DNA of 64,000 nt from Fodinicola acaciae (GTDB lineage Bacteria > Actinomycetota > Actinomycetes > Mycobacteriales > HKI-0501): positions 2,297,235-2,361,234 of the forward strand of contig NZ_WOTN01000001.1 of the NCBI RefSeq assembly GCF_010993745.1, in the 5' to 3' direction. The stretch's first letter is position 1. Each line of letters begins with the position of its first letter. Shown here one piece after another: positions 9,518 to 15,816 of the stretch. The position numbers were made by a program, and so were the translations under genes. The notes below the pieces were generated by a model. It saw only the letters and a program-made list of their open reading frames with translations, searched no databases and was not told the DNA's origin.

Positions 9518-10057
9518 TCAGGACGGCCAGGCCTCGGCGAGCAGTTGGCGCGTGTCGGACAGCAGCTGTGGCAACACGCGCGTGTGGCCGATGACCGGCA
9601 TGAAGTTGGTGTCGCCACCCCACCGCGGCACGACGTGCTGGTGCAGGTGCTCGGCGATCCCGGCGCCGGCGACGGTCCCCTGGTTCATGCCGATGTTGAA
9701 GCCGTGCGGCTTGCTCACCGACCGGATCACCCGCATGGCCGTCCGCGTGAAGCCGGCCAGCTCGGCGACCTCCTCGTCGGTCAGGTCGGTGTAGTCGGGC
9801 ACGTGCCGGTATGGCACCGCCATCAGGTGTCCGGGGTTGTACGGATAGAGGTTGAGCACCGCGTACACCAGCTTGCCGCGCGCCAGCACCAGGCCGTCCT
9901 GGTCGGACAGCTCCGGGATCGCGCAGAACGGACACGCGTCGCCGCGACCGGGACCGGAGACGTACGCGAGGCGGTGCGGTGTCCACATCCGCTGGAACGG
10001 GTCCGGCTCCCCCACCCCCGCCTGTTCGGTCGGCTCCGGCAGCTGTCCCGTTCCCAT
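9518..10057 (-). CDS. HIT-family nucleotide phosphorylase/hydrolase (AP4A phosphorylase-like)
   Basis: 179 residues. A zinc-binding Cys pair CPFC (42-45) and the histidine triad HLHQHVVPRW (His137, His139, His141) mark the HIT superfamily; NPGHLMAVPYRHV is the conserved strand before it. The sequence resembles the actinobacterial HIT protein encoded between thrS and pgsA in mycobacteria (Rv2613c type), reported to act on diadenosine tetraphosphate. Here it is still on the same strand between thrS and pgsA but separated from both by other genes. AGGA precedes the ATG by about 9 bases. A perfect palindrome lies just upstream. Confidence 0.88.
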   Translation of the reverse strand: MGTGQLPEPTEQAGVGEPDPFQRMWTPHRLAYVSGPGRGDACPFCAIPELSDQDGLVLARGKLVYAVLNLYPYNPGHLMAVPYRHVPDYTDLTDEEVAELAGFTRTAMRVIRSVSKPHGFNIGMNQGTVAGAGIAEHLHQHVVPRWGGDTNFMPVIGHTRVLPQLLSDTRQLLAEAWPS

Positions 10058-10115
10058 GGCCCGATCCTACGGTCGAGGTGCGAGCCCGAGCAGCCAACCG
10101 TACGCGGTCCGCCGA

Positions 10116-10134
10116 ACTGTCCACTGTGGACAGT
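10116..10134. promoter_or_regulatory. Perfect 19-bp palindrome upstream of the HIT gene
   Basis: ACTGTCCACTGTGGACAGT is a perfect 9+1+9 inverted repeat in the 87-base gap between the acetyltransferase stop and the HIT start. It could be an operator for the HIT/HEAT unit or a short hairpin terminator of the acetyltransferase gene; no T-run follows on the minus strand. Function is inference. Confidence 0.4.
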
Positions 10135-10144
10135 GTAGTGGCGG

Positions 10145-10612
10145 CTAGCCCCAGCAGGCGTGACTGGCCGCGCCGTTGAGGTTTTTCACGTAGACGACAC
10201 AACTTTCCGGATGCCGGACGGTCCGGCCGTCGGCCAGGTATTCGATCCGGAACGTGTCGATCAACCCGCCGGACCACTGGTTGTAGTGCAGTGCCTTGTA
10301 AAGGTCGACGGCTTCCAGGTTGTCCGGGTCGACGCCGAGCACCACCCGGTGGTGGCCTTCGCGTACCAGCCACCGCTCGGCCTCGCGGATCAGCGTGCTG
10401 CCGACCCCGCGGCGCCGGCAGTCCGCGCGTACCCACAGGTTCATGATCAGCGGCGCGCCGGGAAGCGCGTCCCGGATCTCCTGTTCCTCGGCCGGTTCCA
10501 GCCAGATGTAGACGTGTCCCAGGATCGTGCCGTCGGCGGCGGCGATCAGCAACTCGCCGTTGCCTGCCTCCCGGCGGCGCAGCCGGTCCCGCAGCAGGCT
10601 CAGCTGGCTCAC
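10145..10612 (-). CDS. GNAT-family N-acetyltransferase
   Basis: 155 residues from GTG 10612. The acetyl-CoA site is visible as NLWVRADCRRRGVGSTLI (about 58-75; RRxGxG type), followed by HHRVVLGVDPDNLEAVDLYKAL, the usual beta5-alpha4 region. The frame stays open 22 more codons upstream to 10678 and reads ITGNFTVRPANADDL, which looks like the missing first strand of a GNAT fold, yet it offers no ATG, GTG or TTG before the in-frame stop. Either the real start is a rare codon (ATT at 10678) or the protein begins at the internal GTG. The substrate is unknown. Confidence 0.75.
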   Translation of the reverse strand: MSQLSLLRDRLRRREAGNGELLIAAADGTILGHVYIWLEPAEEQEIRDALPGAPLIMNLWVRADCRRRGVGSTLIREAERWLVREGHHRVVLGVDPDNLEAVDLYKALHYNQWSGGLIDTFRIEYLADGRTVRHPESCVVYVKNLNGAASHACWG

Positions 10613-10735
10613 CTCGGCACCGGCGAGCGCGGACAGGTCGTCCGCGTTCGCCGGCCTGACAGTGAAGTTTCCAGTAATGCGGCCAGTTTACTTGTTCGAA
10701 GACGCGCACCATCGCGCGTTTTCCTACTTTTTACG

Positions 10736-10996
10736 TCAGTGCGTGACGGCCGTGACCAGGATGACCACGACCGCACCACCGACCACGACCAGCGTCAACG
10801 CGGTCATCACCACCATCCGGAACAGGTCGGCCACCAGGACCAACACCGGACGGATCCGGCGCAGGCCCCAGCCGACCAGCGCGACGACGGCCAGCACCAG
10901 CAGGCCGACGAACAGCAACGGCGACGGCGCCGCACCGGCGTCCGACGCGATGACCAGGTGATTTACCACGGCGTACGGGAGGGCTAACATCAACAT
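10736..10996 (-). CDS. Small two-helix membrane protein, unknown function
   Basis: 86 residues with a GAGG ribosome binding site 8 bases before the ATG. Two predicted transmembrane segments, about 27-45 (LLFVGLLVLAVVALVGWGL) and about 60-83 (MVVMTALTLVVVGGAVVVIL), flank a basic RRIRP turn. No family recognised. It is divergent from the XRE gene and shares the 288-base control region 10997-11284 with it. Short and hydrophobic genes are easily mispredicted, but the start site and hydrophobicity support it. Confidence 0.5.
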   Translation of the reverse strand: MLMLALPYAVVNHLVIASDAGAAPSPLLFVGLLVLAVVALVGWGLRRIRPVLVLVADLFRMVVMTALTLVVVGGAVVVILVTAVTH

Positions 10997-11168
10997 CGCA
11001 AGACCTCGCTCGGCAGAAGCAGGCTTGTGGATTCACGGCACCTCTGGTGGCAGCCAGGGGTGCCGTACCCTTTTCGCGGCTTGTCGCCGCGGTCCAGTGG
11101 CGTCAGATCTCGCCACACGGCAGTGGAGGCGATCGCTGTCGATCCGGAAACTTCATCTGCCGCCCGCC

Positions 11169-11254
11169 CTTCAGTCAACTTCAGTGAATTAAGCTGAACA
11201 GGCTCGACACGAGCGTAAGCTTAAGTTGTCAACTGAAGCAAGCTGTAGTACACA
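11169..11254 (+). promoter_or_regulatory. Promoter and operator region of the XRE/glycosyltransferase pair
   Basis: An A/T-richer stretch with three copies of CTTCAGT: direct at 11169-11175 and 11179-11185, inverted (ACTGAAG) at 11232-11238. The last sits in a near-perfect 19-bp palindrome, CTTAAGTTGTCAACTGAAG at 11220-11238 (8 of 9 pairs). TTGTCA at 11226-11231 can serve as -35 with TACACA at 11249-11254 as a weak -10, 17 bases apart, so the palindrome would cover the -35. TTCAG-N8-CTGAA at 11180-11197 is a second small palindrome. Autoregulation by the XRE protein is inferred. Confidence 0.5.
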
Positions 11255-11284
11255 TAGGGGACGCAACGCGGCGGAAGGAGGGGG

Positions 11285-12361
11285 ATGGCCTCCAACGCTG
11301 CTGCCGCCACGGCGCTGGCCCGGCGCCTGAAAGCACTCCGCACCGGCCGCGGCATCAAGCAGGCACAGCTCGCCAACGTGATGGGGGTCAGCGGTCCGCT
11401 GATCTCCGCCTGGGAGAACGCCGACAACCCCACCCCACCGCCGGTCGAGCGTCTGAAGACGTACGCGGAGCTCTTCGCCAGCACACGCTCCGCCGACGCG
11501 CGCCGGTGGCAGCCGGTGCCGGTCGCCGACCTGACCGGCGAGGAGCTGGCCCGGCGCGACGAGCTGGAAGCCGAGCTGCTCGAGCTGCGCGCCACGGCCA
11601 CCGGCGAGGCGCCGCCGGCCACGCCGACCGAGATCAACCAGATCGGCGGCGGTCCGTGGCGGTTTCCCGACGGCGAGAACGTGACCATCGTCTGCGCTCA
11701 GCTGCCGGACGACATCCGCGGCAAGATGCCGTACGCGGATCCGGCGGACCCCGACTACGTGCGGCTCTACGACTACGCCGACCTGGACTCGCTGGTGGAG
11801 CTGTTCGGCCACGTACGCGCGACCAACCCGAACGCCAACGTGCGCTTCAAGCTGGCAAACCACCTCAGCGAGGACGACTACACCACCCACCTGATCATGC
11901 TGGGTGGCGTCGACTGGAACGTGGTCACCAGGCAGCTGCTGCGGTCGCTGCCGCTGCCGGTCAGGCAGGCCCGCCGCGAGGACGACACCGCCGAGGCCGC
12001 CTTCGAGGTGCGCACCGACGATGGCGTGACCCGGTTCTCGCCGCAGTTCGACGCCGACGAACGCAGGACACTGCGAGCGGACGTGGCGCAGTTCGTGCGA
12101 GGCCTCAACCCGTTCAACCGCAAACGCACGGTGACCATCTGCAACGGCATGTACGGCCAGGGGACCTACGGCGCGGTGCGAGCGCTGACCGACGTGCGGT
12201 TCCGTGACCGTAACGGTGCCTACATCGCGTCGGAGTTTCCGGCCGCCTGGACCTACAGCCTGCTTTTCCGCGTCGGCATCTTCGAGGCCATCGCGCTGAC
12301 ACCGGACTGGACGGCCCCCGGTACGGTGCTGCACAAGTGGTCGGAGCCGCCGAATGCCTAG
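11285..12361 (+). CDS. XRE-family DNA-binding protein with C-terminal alpha/beta sensor-like domain
   Basis: 358 residues. Residues about 10-65 are a Cro/C1-type helix-turn-helix (LARRLKALRTGRGIKQAQLA, VSGPLISAWENAD). A charged linker (about 85-115) leads to an alpha/beta region with ENVTIVCAQLPDD (about 128), DYADLDSLVELFGHV, HLIMLGGVDWN (about 202) and RTVTICNGMYGQGTYGAVR (about 280). Glycine-rich loops after hydrophobic strands suggest a nucleotide- or small-molecule-binding fold, but I cannot name the family. AAGGAGG lies only 3 bases before the ATG, a short spacing. The glycosyltransferase gene follows after 42 bases. It is probably the ligand-controlled regulator of the pair. Confidence 0.75.
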   Translation: MASNAAAATALARRLKALRTGRGIKQAQLANVMGVSGPLISAWENADNPTPPPVERLKTYAELFASTRSADARRWQPVPVADLTGEELARRDELEAELLELRATATGEAPPATPTEINQIGGGPWRFPDGENVTIVCAQLPDDIRGKMPYADPADPDYVRLYDYADLDSLVELFGHVRATNPNANVRFKLANHLSEDDYTTHLIMLGGVDWNVVTRQLLRSLPLPVRQARREDDTAEAAFEVRTDDGVTRFSPQFDADERRTLRADVAQFVRGLNPFNRKRTVTICNGMYGQGTYGAVRALTDVRFRDRNGAYIASEFPAAWTYSLLFRVGIFEAIALTPDWTAPGTVLHKWSEPPNA

Positions 12362-12403
12362 CGTCCCGAGTCGACCCACCGAGGCCGTTGGAGGCCATGT
12401 CCA

Positions 12404-13636
12404 GTGAACGGCGTCAACGTCGATGCCTCGCGAGAGCAGATCGGCCACCACAGTTCGCACACGCACCTGCTCGCACCGGCACCGGTCGCGCTGGACCCCT
12501 CCGATCGCATCGACGCGATCGTCGTTCCGACCGTACGGCCGACCAGAAACCTGCGTAATGCGATAGCGCTGGCCAGAAACCTCGAATGCGCGCTCGTCGT
12601 GCTCTGCAGCCGAAACGCCAGAGCGCGACAGGCGGTGCGCTATGCGACCGACGTTCCGGGCTTCATGGCGCTGGACATCGCCAAGCCGCGCGTGCCGGCG
12701 TTCGCCACCTCCACCCTGCCGGTCAACCAGAAGCTGCGGCGGCCCACCGACACCAGCCTCAAGCGCAACGTCGGACTCGCGGTCGCCGCTATGGCCGGCT
12801 GGCAGCGAATCCTGTTCCTCGACGACGACATCACCGTGCCAAGCCCGCGCAGCGTACGCACGGCCGCCGGCCTGCTGGACAGTTTCGCCGCCGTGGGACT
12901 GAAAAACACCGGCTTCCCGGACAACTCCGTGGTCTGTCACGCGTGGCGCGCCATCGGCGAGGAGCAGGAGACCTTCATCGGCGGCGGCGCACTGGCCGTG
13001 CCAGCCGGCCGGTCCGCCTCGTTTTTCCCCACCATCTACAACGAAGACTGGTTCTTCCTGGTCGACAGCGACCGGCTCAACCCGGTGACCGCGATGGGGT
13101 CGGTGAAGCAGGCGCCGTTCGACCCGTACGCGGATCCCGCCCGCGCCGGCTCGGAGGAGTTCGGCGACTGCCTGGCCGAAGGCGTGTTCGCGTTGCTGGA
13201 CAACGGCCGGCCGGTGCACGACGCGGACGAGCCGTACTGGGAGGGATTCCTGGCGGCGCGCGCGGAGATGATCGCGACGATCCTCCGGCGCATCCCGGCG
13301 ATTTCCTGTGGTGAGCAACAAAAGGAGCGGATGCGCCGCGCGCTGCGGGCCTCCCGCGACCGGCTGCGGATGATCACGCCGCGGATCTGCGTCCAGTATC
13401 TGGAGGCGCTGGAACGCGATCGCACCGTGTGGGCCGACTTTCTCAACGGCCTCCCACCGGCGCCGCCGGCGGAGGCGGCACGCATCCTCGGCCTGCATCC
13501 GGTCCTGCCCGAAAGTGAGCCGACGGCCGTAGGCAGGATTGCCGGCGTGGCGAGGATGCCGGCCTTCGACCGTGCCTTCGATGCCAAGCAGAGCCAGGAA
13601 ACGCGGCTGGACGCCGAGGTCGGCGTCAGCGCGTAA
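12404..13636 (+). CDS. GT-A-like glycosyltransferase paired with the XRE protein
   Basis: 410 residues from GTG 12404, with GGAGG 9 bases upstream. An alpha/beta core begins DAIVVPTVRPTRNL (about 36). RILFLDDDITVP (about 140-151) carries a DDD metal motif typical of GT-A folds, and NEDWFFLVD (about 213) resembles the ED(W) acceptor/base motif of family 2 enzymes. FIGGGALAVP lies between them. The C-terminal third is helical. There is no membrane segment, so it is probably cytosolic. The N-terminal codons include two AGA, one ATA and AAT in a short run (12541-12590), unusual for this GC-rich genome. Donor and acceptor are unknown. Confidence 0.65.
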   Translation: MNGVNVDASREQIGHHSSHTHLLAPAPVALDPSDRIDAIVVPTVRPTRNLRNAIALARNLECALVVLCSRNARARQAVRYATDVPGFMALDIAKPRVPAFATSTLPVNQKLRRPTDTSLKRNVGLAVAAMAGWQRILFLDDDITVPSPRSVRTAAGLLDSFAAVGLKNTGFPDNSVVCHAWRAIGEEQETFIGGGALAVPAGRSASFFPTIYNEDWFFLVDSDRLNPVTAMGSVKQAPFDPYADPARAGSEEFGDCLAEGVFALLDNGRPVHDADEPYWEGFLAARAEMIATILRRIPAISCGEQQKERMRRALRASRDRLRMITPRICVQYLEALERDRTVWADFLNGLPPAPPAEAARILGLHPVLPESEPTAVGRIAGVARMPAFDRAFDAKQSQETRLDAEVGVSA

Positions 13637-13695
13637 GAGCCTGTTGGTAAACCCTGGCACGCGATAGCCGAGCACCATATTTTGCCAACAGGCTC
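13637..13695. repeat. 15-bp inverted repeat immediately after the glycosyltransferase stop
   Basis: GAGCCTGTTGGTAAA (13637-13651) and TTTGCCAACAGGCTC (13681-13695) match at 14 of 15 pairs around a 29-base interior. The left arm abuts the TAA stop. The loop is long for a terminator; it may be a small terminal-inverted-repeat remnant or a regulatory RNA hairpin. Confidence 0.5.
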
Positions 13696-13700
13696 CAAAA

Positions 13701-13727
13701 CTCCGGCACAACGGGTGTGTGCCGGAG
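13701..13727. terminator. Perfect hairpin between convergent glycosyltransferase and thrS
   Basis: CTCCGGCACA (13701-13710) pairs perfectly with TGTGCCGGAG (13718-13727) around a 7-base loop. It lies between convergent genes, so it can end transcription from both sides. The minus-strand side has a TTTT run (complement of AAAA at 13697-13700) just past the stem, fitting a terminator for thrS. Confidence 0.7.
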
Positions 13728-13733
13728 CTGCAC

Positions 13734-15719
13734 TCAGACCTGTTTGCGGGTGGCGACCGCGTCGACGATCTCGGCGACCGCCTCGTCGATGGACACGCCG
13801 TTTTTCTGCGTACCGTCGCGATAACGGAAGCTGACCGCGTCCTTGTCGACGTCGTCGTCGCCGGCGATCAGCATGTACGGCACCTTCTGCTTCTGCGCCG
13901 TGCGGATCTTCTTCTGCATGCGGTCGTCGGAGGTGTCCACCTCGACCCGGATCCGCTTCTCGCGCAGCCGCGCGGCGACCTTCTCCAGGTGGTCGACGTG
14001 CGCGTCGGACACCGGGATGCCGACGACCTGGACCGGCGCGAGCCAGGGCGGGAAAGCACCGGCGTAGTGCTCCAGCAGGATGCCGAAGAAGCGTTCGATG
14101 GAGCCGAAGAGCGCGCGGTGGATCATCACCGGCTGCTTACGTGTGCCATCGGCGGCCTGGTATTCCAGCTCGAAGCGTTTCGGCTGGTTGAAGTCGAGCT
14201 GGATGGTCGACATCTGCCAGGTGCGGCCGAGCGCGTCGCGGGCCTGCACGGAGATCTTCGGACCGTAGAACGCCGCACCGCCGGGGTCCGGCACCAGCTC
14301 CAGGCCGGAGTCGAGCGCGGCCTGCCGCAGCGTCTCGGTGGCCTCCTCCCACTCCTGGTCGGAGCCGAGGAACTTCGGGCCGTCGCCACGGGTGGACAGC
14401 TCCAGGTAGAAGTCGTCCAGGCCGTAGTCGCGCAGCAGGTCGAGCACGAAGGCGAGCAGGCTGCGCAGCTCGCCGGGCATCTGCTCCTGCGTGCAGTAGA
14501 TGTGCGAGTCGTCCATGGTGAGGCCGCGTACGCGGGTGAGACCGTGGACCACGCCGGACTTCTCGTAGCGGTAGACCGTGCCGAACTCGAACAGCCGCAG
14601 CGGCAGCTCCCGGTAGGACCGGCCGCGGGACCGGAACACCAGGTTGTGCATCGGGCAGTTCATCGCCTTCAGGTAGTACTCGGCGCCTTCCAGCTCCATC
14701 GGCGGGAACATCGTGTCGGCGTAGTACGGCAGGTGGCCCGAGGTCTCGAACAGGTGGCCCTTGGTGATGTGCGGCGTGTTGACGAACTCGTAGCCGGAGT
14801 CCTCGTGGCGTACGCGCGAGTAGTTCTCCAGCTCTCGGCGCACGATGCCGCCGCGCGGGTGGAAGACCGGCAGGCCGGAGCCGATCTCGTCAGGAAAGGA
14901 GAACAGGTCCAGCTCGGCGCCGAGCTTGCGGTGGTCGCGTTTCTCCGCCTCGGCGAGCAGCGCGAGGTAGTTCTTCAGCGCGTCGCGGCTCTCCCAGGCG
15001 GTGCCGTAGATCCGCTGCAACTGCGGGTTTTTCTCGCTTCCCCGCCAGTACGCGGCGGCCGAGCGCATCAGCTTGAACGCCGGGATGTGCCGGGTCGAGG
15101 GCAGGTGCGGACCGCGGCACAGGTCACCCCAGACCCGCTCGCCGGTCTTGCGGTCGAGGTTGTCGTACGCGGTCAGCTCGCCGCCACCGACCTCCATCAC
15201 CTCGTCGGTGTCGACCTCCGACTTCAGGTCGACCAGCTCCAGCTTGTACGGCTCGGCCGCCAGCTCGGCCCTGGCTTCGTCGAGCGATGGATAGACGCGG
15301 CGGCGGAAGCGCTGGCCGGACTTGACGATGTCCCCCATCTTCTTCTCGATGGCGGCCAGGTCGTCCGGGGTGAACGGCTTCGGCACGTCGAAGTCGTAGT
15401 AGAAGCCGTCCTTGATCGGCGGCCCGATGCCGAGCCGTGCCTCGCCGAACAGCTCCTGCACGGCCTGCGCCATGACGTGCGCGGTCGAGTGCCGCAGGAC
15501 CGCGCGGCCGTCGTCGGTGTCGATGGCCACCGCCTCGACGCGCTCCTCGGCGGCCGGCGTCCACTCCAGATCGCGCAGCTTGCCGTCGCTGTCGCGTACG
15601 ACGACGATCGCCTGCGCGCCGGTCGTGGGCAGGCCCGCTTTCTCCACCGCCTCCGCCGCCGTCGTGCCGGCCGGCACCACGACGGTGGCGGACACGGCGG
15701 GACTGACGGATGCGGACAC
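13734..15719 (-). CDS. thrS: Threonine--tRNA ligase
   Basis: 661 residues from GTG 15719, with GGGAGA 7 bases upstream; an ATG at 15761 would add 14 residues without such a site. An N-terminal TGS domain (about 1-65) is followed by the editing domain with HSTAHV (HxxxH) and its partner CRGPH, the class II catalytic core with MNCPMH (zinc Cys), [17 protein letters not shown] (motif 2), and [17 protein letters not shown] (motif 3), and a C-terminal anticodon domain ([12 protein letters not shown] onward). It charges tRNA-Thr and hydrolyses Ser-tRNA-Thr. I saw no T-box leader in the 97 bases upstream. Confidence 0.96.
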
Positions 15720-15816
15720 GGTGATCTCCCAGATTCGGTAGCGGTGCATGTGAAACTGCACGCCGATCGTATCCAGGCCGTCGACGACGCCCGCACGGGA
15801 TTCCCCTGGCGCTCGC

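Follow-up and report, generated by a model that had tools for sequence, protein, structure and literature searches.

What a regulator and a glycosyltransferase might do together is the question raised by a gene pair lying between HIT and thrS in the 64,000-nucleotide stretch of Fodinicola acaciae DNA analysed here (the window). The original prediction, made from the sequence alone, described the pair as a self-contained and possibly acquired module in which an XRE-type regulator senses a ligand and controls a cytosolic sugar transferase, perhaps in a stress or anti-phage circuit.

The gene pair and its setting

The ORF coordinates agree with the predicted arrangement of two co-oriented genes 42 bp apart on the + strand, opposite to the - strand of thrS and HIT. 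The features of the region are as follows.

9518-10057, - strand: HIT
10076-13731, unstranded: genus-variable interval between HIT and thrS, with the whole block inside (BLASTN)
10145-10612, - strand: GNAT-family acetyltransferase gene, 155 aa (Pfam Acetyltransf_1, E 3.5e-16)
10736-10996, - strand: small two-TM ORF, 86 aa, divergent from XRE (position and hydropathy)
11170-11188, unstranded: main operator array, putative, TTCAGTCAACTTCAGTGAA (PWM score 16.0)
11228-11245, unstranded: weaker operator-like site closer to the XRE start, at -57 (PWM score 10.0)
11285-12361, + strand: XRE-HTH regulator, 358 aa, with a C-terminal alpha/beta sensor-like domain at about residues 122-358 (Pfam HTH, AlphaFold2, fold search)
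12404-13636, + strand: GT-A-fold glycosyltransferase (GT), 410 aa, GTG start, DDD at 140-142 and YNEDW at 212-216 (AlphaFold2, fold search, conserved motifs)
13637-13695, unstranded: palindromic MITE-like element of 59 bp, a short copy of a dispersed repeat, abutting the GT stop and outside the module
13734-15761, - strand: thrS

The two-TM ORF (10736-10996, -) and the GNAT gene (10145-10612, -) within the interval were absent from the original list of genes. BLASTN homology with a genome of the same genus, G296, ends at window positions 10075 and 13732, and in six of the seven relatives read, HIT and thrS are collinear, with 12-156 bp between the aligned ends.

Pairing was assessed in the best 80 of 203 relatives. 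XRE lies directly upstream of GT in 74 of these 80 loci, and the two frames overlap in 64 of 76 pairs, with start codons chosen by script and the second GTs of L073 and L094 included in the count. The pair is thus found together in other genomes and survives the test posed for it at the outset; it is real and conserved, and recurs across many actinomycete genera. Full-length GT is present in 6 of 296 genomes of the class, the window's own included, all of which carry the sensor domain at E<1e-80, a level reached by no genome outside those six; the remaining genomes include three with partial or weak GT matches and one with a weak sensor match. XRE and GT distances are correlated over 68 loci (Mantel r 0.76, a value reached in 0 of 999 permutations), a correlation to which shared species history contributes.

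Two further signs had been read as marks of a bounded, acquired module. A local run of rare codons is present in GT, where five AGA, CGT, AAT or ATA codons fall within 17 codons, the densest run among the 46 window ORFs compared (at most four in any other). Gene-wide codon usage is ordinary: the CAI is 0.770 for XRE and 0.700 for GT against a mean of 0.706 (sd 0.082) for 37 background ORFs, and GC3 is 0.911 and 0.866 against 0.865 (sd 0.067), the background being a crude ORF list that includes wrong-strand ORFs and from which one ORF antisense to XRE and GT was excluded. Codons therefore give no evidence of acquisition, and codon usage was rejected as a sign of transfer. Statistically normal codons had been named in the original prediction as an outcome that would refute it. 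The inverted repeat predicted at the second stop codon is present there (arms 13637-13651 and 13681-13695), but it is one short copy among many of a repeat dispersed across the genome (54 matches of any strength at E<=10, counting the copy itself; full copies of about 165 bp by eye) and so does not bracket the module. As a terminator or module boundary it was rejected, a terminator scan having returned no hit to it.

The operator and the divergent gene

The AT-rich region ahead of XRE, predicted to be rich in operators, contains a conserved array of TTCA/TGAA half-sites repeated every 5 bp. The motif is found in 75 of 79 XRE upstream regions, which are also its training set, versus 3 of 628 control genes. 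When trained on the 39 loci of one family group it is found in 35 of 40 other loci versus 2 of 313 control genes, a test that is held out in training and not in seed, since the EM seed was picked after viewing words from all families; thresholds were likewise set after a first look. Two or more sites more than 16 bp apart occur in 51 of 79 loci. Among ten further XRE starts outside the 79 training regions (from L012-L016, L190 and L191), five score at least 11.3 and five at most 8.2, the latter being L014, L015 and a single XRE in each of L016, L190 and L191; among six XRE starts in order relatives, with positions inferred from tblastn, three score at least 11.7 and three at most 9.5. The operator is thus weaker in these sets, where 5 of 10 and 3 of 6 starts, respectively, reach a score of 10. 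A four-unit pattern allowing one mismatch has a single place in the window's own genome, at 11170-11188. In a scan of ten whole genomes the pattern matched in three and marked the XRE locus in two of the eight that carry XRE; one match, in G242, lies away from the XRE locus and a reversed control pattern matched in four of the ten, so that the single occurrence in the window's own genome carries weight only in combination with position. From its conservation and position, the array is a candidate binding site for XRE.

The setting extends beyond the predicted pair: a two-TM or cyclase-like gene also lies there in divergent orientation, and GNAT is often present too. The slot divergent from XRE holds a small two-TM ORF in 39 of 78 loci and a cyclase-like gene in 28 of 78. 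Small hydrophobic divergent ORFs occur in 39 of the 50 non-cyclase loci versus 21 of 488 control genes, the two-TM class being defined by position and hydropathy, not by homology. Common descent within this class is not established, as an alignment of 18 two-TM proteins has 0 invariant columns; a tblastn search with the window's small ORF over 80 loci gave a best E of 0.076. No two-TM ORF was found in the 1.1 kb scanned in cyclase loci, an absence that is partly mechanical because the cyclase-like gene fills most of that distance. An array lies 20-40 bp ahead of the cyclase-like start in 13 of the 28 such loci, and in L047 this array also adjoins XRE. In the window, no array adjoins the start of the two-TM ORF. 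A profile of eight cyclase-like proteins matches the cyclase structures 3mr7 (E 0.0019) and 5d0g (E 0.014), and none of the eight members has a cyclase Pfam match.

GNAT relatives lie near the pair in 55 of the 80 loci (the best 80 of 203 relatives), and no GNAT of the same family was found near it in the other 25. None of 56 GNAT upstream regions contains the operator, and membership of GNAT in the regulon is accordingly unsupported.

Predicted folds of the two proteins

The Pfam matches and the AlphaFold2 model agree with the predicted joining of a helix-turn-helix to an alpha/beta domain. The N-terminal part of XRE matches Pfam HTH_31 and HTH_3 (HTH_31 35.6 bits, cut-off 27), nothing outside the HTH exceeds a Pfam cut-off, and the model has a mean pLDDT of 92.5 and a pTM of 0.71. 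The fold searches proposed with the original prediction place the C-terminal domain nearest to BcsB (Z 10.0) and the N-domains of GH67 and GH84, with the archaeal S-layer anchor domain 9fsa at Z 9.2; a distant stand-alone relative of the domain matches Pfam S_layer_C weakly (E 0.0072, 16.4 bits, cut-off 23.9). One distant sensor-domain protein has an overlapping GT25-family gene directly downstream. The XRE alignment (A3) comprises the window XRE and 75 of 78 XRE proteins, L054, L069 and L089 being omitted. The domain may sense a ligand.

The window GT was compared with Pfam, NCBIfam, PADLOC and PHROGs and matched none of them at E<=1. Its AlphaFold2 model (mean pLDDT 89.8, pTM 0.88) resembles GT-A enzymes at Z 13-19, the closest solved fold being MtdL (Z 18.9, rmsd 3.3, 253 aligned). 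The predicted DDD metal motif is confirmed at residues 140-142 and is kept in all 78 rows of alignment A4, which holds the window GT and 77 of 84 GTs (omitting L050, L066, L069, L080, L089, L091 and the upstream GT of L094). Also invariant in 78/78 rows are P42, R45, D116, K120-R121-N122, D173, S175, H179, Y212, N213, D215 and Q236. The family thus has the GT-A hallmark of a GT-A fold, a DDD metal motif and a downstream aspartate, Asp215, in every row. GT would be a cytosolic, metal-dependent and probably inverting sugar transferase.

The similarity to MtdL raises the alternative of a GT75-type (MtdL/UAM) mutase that interconverts the pyranose and furanose forms of nucleotide sugars. The nearest fold, the similarity to plant UAM (Z 14.8), and a shared segment of RN-x-G followed by DDD all speak for it. 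The glycosylated arginine of GT75, described in PMC9937993, is MtdL Arg159, the residue ahead of the G(F/Y)P turn. By motif alignment this residue is Arg in only 1 of 78 GT rows and Thr169 in the window, and the position of MtdL Arg257 is Tyr212, a Tyr in 78/78 rows; catalytic residues were placed by motif because the profile alignment of GT with GT75 covers 33 columns only. With 0 of 78 members matching Pfam RGP (PF03214) at E<=0.1, the catalytic arginine of GT75 missing and the profile similarity confined to 33 columns, GT75 membership was rejected and a mutase of this kind is very improbable. More improbable still is the glycosylation of DNA bases in the manner of TET-associated glycosyltransferases (TAGT): hits to Pfam TAGT (PF20691) occur in 7 of the 78 members, yet with a best E of 0.0057, the window GT has no such match at E<=1, and no relative was found in viral contigs. 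The TAGT identity was dropped, the scores being too weak and the members too few.

Function and relation to known systems

The explanation that we favor, with a probability of about one half, is a locally autoregulated cassette consisting of a probably ligand-responsive repressor, a sugar transferase acting in the cytosol, and a partner encoded divergently. XRE would bind the TTCA/TGAA arrays close to where its own XRE-GT operon begins and, in many of the genomes, those close to the start of the divergent two-TM or cyclase-like gene, repressing both, and a small ligand in the conserved alpha/beta domain would lift the repression. GT would then move sugar from an NDP-sugar onto a soluble acceptor, whether small molecule, nucleotide, or protein, and the nearby GNAT may be a frequent second modifying enzyme. 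Instead of a ligand, the sensor domain could bind GT itself. Counting against the favored explanation are the two-TM start in the window, which lacks an array, the operator-free GNAT upstream regions and the 25 loci without a nearby GNAT of this family, the weaker operator outside the training set, the whole-genome scan, in which the four-unit pattern marked few XRE loci and the reversed control matched as well, and two loci, L063 and L042, in which GT persists beside a reduced XRE.

These two loci also bear on a toxin-antitoxin-like arrangement, in which the sensor domain of XRE restrains a GT that is harmful once freed and XRE autorepresses the operon. The regulator-first order, the mostly overlapping frames, the operator ahead of the regulator's own gene, the patchy distribution, and the XRE-GT co-variation are consistent with such an arrangement. 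However, L063 retains an intact GT although the XRE at the locus is reduced to its last 29 residues, and L042 has two GT genes with XRE remnants only at the locus. Position is moreover stable within several genera, all 36 Saccharothrix locus pairs and all 6 Kibdelosporangium pairs having at least two flanking families in common. In one genus, that of G307, GT is present in all four genomes, and XRE is far bigger than usual antitoxins. We consider this arrangement unlikely.

If the cassette served in anti-phage defence or in conflict, XRE would sense infection and release GT, along with either a two-TM effector or a cyclase-like producer of a signal. Such a role would account for the divergent slot being filled by one or the other gene according to locus and for the insertion site varying within the window's genus. 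The searches of defence and mobile-element records argue against it. Matches to PADLOC-DB 2.0.0 are confined to the HTH region of XRE (HTH_VI and RmrA models), with none for GT or for the six other proteins searched (GNAT, two-TM, and cyclase-like), and are not specific to any system; GT has no match in phage or plasmid records, XRE matches a single 11.85-Mb plasmid record over 18% of its length, and viral contigs contain no relative of either protein. Flanks are also shared within several genera. The anti-phage role of the original prediction is quite unlikely on these grounds. The observations of that prediction hold as to the ORFs, domains, operator, and codon run and are corrected as to gene-wide codon usage and the repeat as boundary. 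The conserved pair, its own operator, and the genus-variable interval support its interpretation in part, with ligand sensing and sugar transfer as putative functions.

For the autoregulated cassette, no description of such a make-up was found in the open-licence full-text literature. A fuller picture, which we put forward tentatively and regard as rather doubtful, is an undescribed actinomycete signalling or conflict cassette combining an XRE having an S-layer/BcsB-like ligand domain, two opposed promoters, half-turn-spaced arrays, a new cytosolic GT family, and an exchangeable two-TM effector or cyclase-like enzyme, with GT making or destroying the sensed molecule. The finding of a two-TM ORF or a cyclase-like gene in one divergent, operator-flanked slot is unusual, and this exchange points to a part in signalling or at the membrane that annotation by itself had concealed. 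A GT family and a sensor domain that both lack Pfam models are thereby placed in a firm genomic context, with a defined operator and a membrane protein as likely partner, which makes the ligand and the acceptor directly testable.

The cyclase-like proteins widely keep VDIEGST- and DRGDG-type motifs, which we take to be the motifs of class III nucleotidyl cyclases, but the usual active-site Asn is often Asp (by eye). Mannosyl-3-phosphoglycerate and glucosyl-3-phosphoglycerate synthases, GT-A enzymes with small acceptors, resemble GT in fold (Z about 15 and 13, respectively) but are absent from the sequence matches of the GT profile at E<=10. The AvpGT-type nucleoside 3'-O-glucosyltransferases of GT2, as described in PMC11959488, likewise share the GT-A fold (Z 13.2, 19% identity over 214 residues); their solved chain of 306 residues is shorter than GT, and they are absent from its HMMER matches. 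The HTH matches and an operator ahead of its own gene are common to XRE and to XRE/HTH_31 repressors such as P22 c2 and DdrO, from which the window XRE differs in having a large additional C-terminal alpha/beta domain.

The XRE–GT cassette and its neighbours

The genes considered here, in window coordinates, are listed below; HIT and thrS were named by eye, in agreement with homology searches.

9518–10057, minus strand, HIT gene
10736–10996, small two-TM ORF, window copy of the divergent partner
11285–12361, plus strand, XRE regulator gene (Pfam HTH; rest of the protein without assignment)
12404–13636, plus strand, glycosyltransferase (GT) gene, starting 42 bp after XRE
13734–15761, minus strand, thrS

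The original prediction described XRE and GT as a self-contained module, and the survey of relatives bears out their pairing across genera. Scanning named genomes yielded 203 GT relatives, the best 80 of which were retained as loci, representing 22 named genera and one further actinomycete. Among these best 80 of 203, an XRE ORF is found at 78 loci and lies immediately upstream of GT on the same strand at 74. In the non-adjacent cases a GNAT gene sits between XRE and GT (L030), XRE adjoins a second GT (L073 and L094), ∼0.85 kb separates the two genes (L023), XRE is present as remnants only (L042), or an intact GT is preceded by just the last 29 XRE residues (L063). The reading of the cassette as a toxin-antitoxin module is weakened because L063 keeps an intact GT without XRE. 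With script-chosen start codons, 64 of 76 pairs have overlapping frames, and in 71 the gap does not exceed 50 bp. XRE and GT distances are correlated (Mantel r = 0.76, 0/999 permutations, 68 loci), with a contribution from shared species history.

Searching 296 genomes of the class with GT returned nine matches: six full-length (Fodinicola acaciae and five others), one partial and two weak. XRE lies directly upstream of GT in all five other genomes with a full-length match. The sensor domain alone gave seven matches in the same 296 genomes, six of them at E < 1e-80 and in the genomes carrying full-length GT. Among 296 genomes drawn phylum-wide the only match is in F. acaciae itself, where XRE and GT are each single-copy. 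Extra GT paralogues on a separate long tree branch lie close to the main GT in L042 and L073, one in L073 being oppositely oriented. Around the GT/GNAT genes of the f20 genomes (L014, L016, L190, L191) stand two XRE genes whose HTH types differ, and L191 has two XRE–GT pairs.

Relatives of the window GNAT lie close to the pair at 55 of the best 80 loci, all within about 3.2 kb of GT in loci of up to 17 kb each: convergent downstream in 28, same-strand downstream in 16, divergent upstream, as in the window, in 10, and otherwise placed in one. Less similar GNATs adjoin the pair in L014 and L016 (by Pfam) and L015 (by eye).

A putative operator before XRE and the divergent partners

The 8-letter words AACTTCAG and GAACTTCA occur in 61 and 55 of 79 XRE upstream regions, respectively, against 0.6 expected from shuffles and 0–1 in a coding control, and they build arrays of TTCA/TGAA half-sites at 5-bp steps. 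A position matrix reaches a score of at least 10 in 75 of the 79 XRE upstreams, which are its training set, in 3/628 control genes and in 0/56 GNAT upstreams; with GNAT upstreams devoid of the operator, the GNAT–pair link is one of neighbourhood only. A matrix built from 39 Pseudonocardiaceae/Nocardiaceae loci, its seed word picked with all loci in view, scores at least 10 at 35 of 40 other loci, the window among them, versus 2/313 controls. XRE starts outside the training set reach this score in 5/10 cases and, in a second group, 3/6; the second XRE type of the f20 genomes scores low.

A two-unit pattern is present in 63/79 XRE upstreams, 1/628 controls and a mean of 0.24/79 shuffled regions, and the strict three-unit form was counted 26 times in the 250 bp upstream of XRE, with a single further occurrence in the rest of 1.2 Mb of flanking DNA. 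Allowing one mismatch, the four-unit pattern marks a single place in the F. acaciae genome, 11170–11188; three of ten genomes searched contain it, at the XRE locus in 2 of the 8 XRE carriers among the ten, and its reversed control matches in 4/10. Sites total 143, versus 4 after shuffling, with 61 at −50 to 0 and 69 at −250 to −150 from XRE, and 51/79 loci have at least two sites more than 16 bp apart; the window has its sites at −116 and −57. There is good support for a dedicated operator and for local regulation of the cassette. Beyond this, we infer repression, a ligand, GT activity and an acceptor.

At 28 of the 80 retained loci, XRE has a divergent cyclase-like neighbour. Its profile matches cyclase structures weakly (E = 0.0019), and it matched no cyclase Pfam family. 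The operator array stands 20–40 bp before its start at 13 of the 28, in L047 as the same array as that of XRE; in seven near-identical Amycolatopsis loci the array is beside XRE only. A small hydrophobic ORF of two-TM type runs divergently at 39 of the remaining 50 XRE-bearing loci, versus 21/488 control genes (Fisher p = 5e-34, the loci not being independent). These proteins are alike in build, not in residues. The ORF is found in 0/28 cyclase loci, in part mechanically, because the cyclase-like gene occupies the scanned stretch. No operator array adjoins the start of the window copy.

Variability of the thrS–HIT site

Besides the same-genus genome G296, seven relatives were read from among the other HIT-matching genomes; six have thrS and HIT collinear with 12–156 bp between them, HIT being inverted in the seventh. 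G296 (74% complete) has 2.3 kb of other DNA in this interval, and window homology ends at 10075 and 13732. By eye only, the genes of that interval (L142:4503–6786) are beta-lactamase-like and exonuclease-like. No GT was found in G296 at this completeness or in the sole other family member searched. The original suggestion was that the pair may have been acquired; acquisition or shuffling at this site is likely, and codon usage gives no sign of it.

The highest identity of the window GT is 51%, to a Nonomuraea GT. In a quick GT tree Micromonosporaceae rows come closest to it by path and no starred set contains it; a starred branch (98) parts it from order family f53 and only an unstarred one (87) from f57. 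Positional stability differs among other genera: at least two flanking families are common to 36/36 locus pairs in Saccharothrix, 6/6 in Kibdelosporangium, 44/105 in Amycolatopsis, 26/55 in Nonomuraea and 1/21 in Actinoplanes, and GT is present in 4/4 genomes of one genus. An anti-phage role, one of those originally suggested, has a low probability; the positive evidence for it is limited to the variable insertion site and the existence of two types of divergent partner.

Directly after GT, 13637–13695 (59 bp) is a shortened copy of a dispersed, nearly palindromic ∼165-bp repeat with 54 matches in the genome (all strengths, E ≤ 10); several copies (L156–L163 examined) begin, by eye, directly after TAA/TGA.

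Predicted folds and comparison with GT75

The XRE model has a mean pLDDT of 92.5. Its C-terminal domain best matches BcsB residues 537–726 (Z 10.0, rmsd 3.6, 168 aligned), followed, each with 126 aligned, by a GH67 N-domain (Z 9.5) and a Methanococcus S-layer anchor domain (Z 9.2). Since the tool's usual best Z without a clear match is 7–8, these matches are taken as a hint of fold, not of function. The seventh class match, in G088 (L174:5677–7996), is a distant protein with the sensor domain, to which it shows 27% identity; it has no HTH match and no Pfam match at E ≤ 0.1, and is followed by an overlapping GT25-family gene. Though a single case, this links the domain to an unrelated glycosyltransferase. 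A stand-alone relative of the sensor domain (L189:6437–7189) has a weak S_layer_C match and an adjoining CutA1 gene.

For the window GT, there was no Pfam, NCBIfam, PADLOC or PHROGs match at E ≤ 1 and no PDB match at E ≤ 10 in a single-sequence search. Its model (mean pLDDT 89.8) has a GT-A fold nearest to MtdL (Z 18.9, rmsd 3.3, 253 aligned), with further matches to mannosyl-3-phosphoglycerate synthases (Z about 15), plant UAM (14.8) and AvpGT (13.2). Compared with the key residues of MtdL, as described in PMC9937993, the DDD motif is present in 78/78 rows, as in GT75; at the position of the GT75 arginine, 1/78 rows has Arg, and just 33 columns align between the two profiles. Identity as a GT75 mutase was rejected on these grounds, and the GT is instead predicted, from model and alignment, to be a GT-A enzyme of unassigned family.
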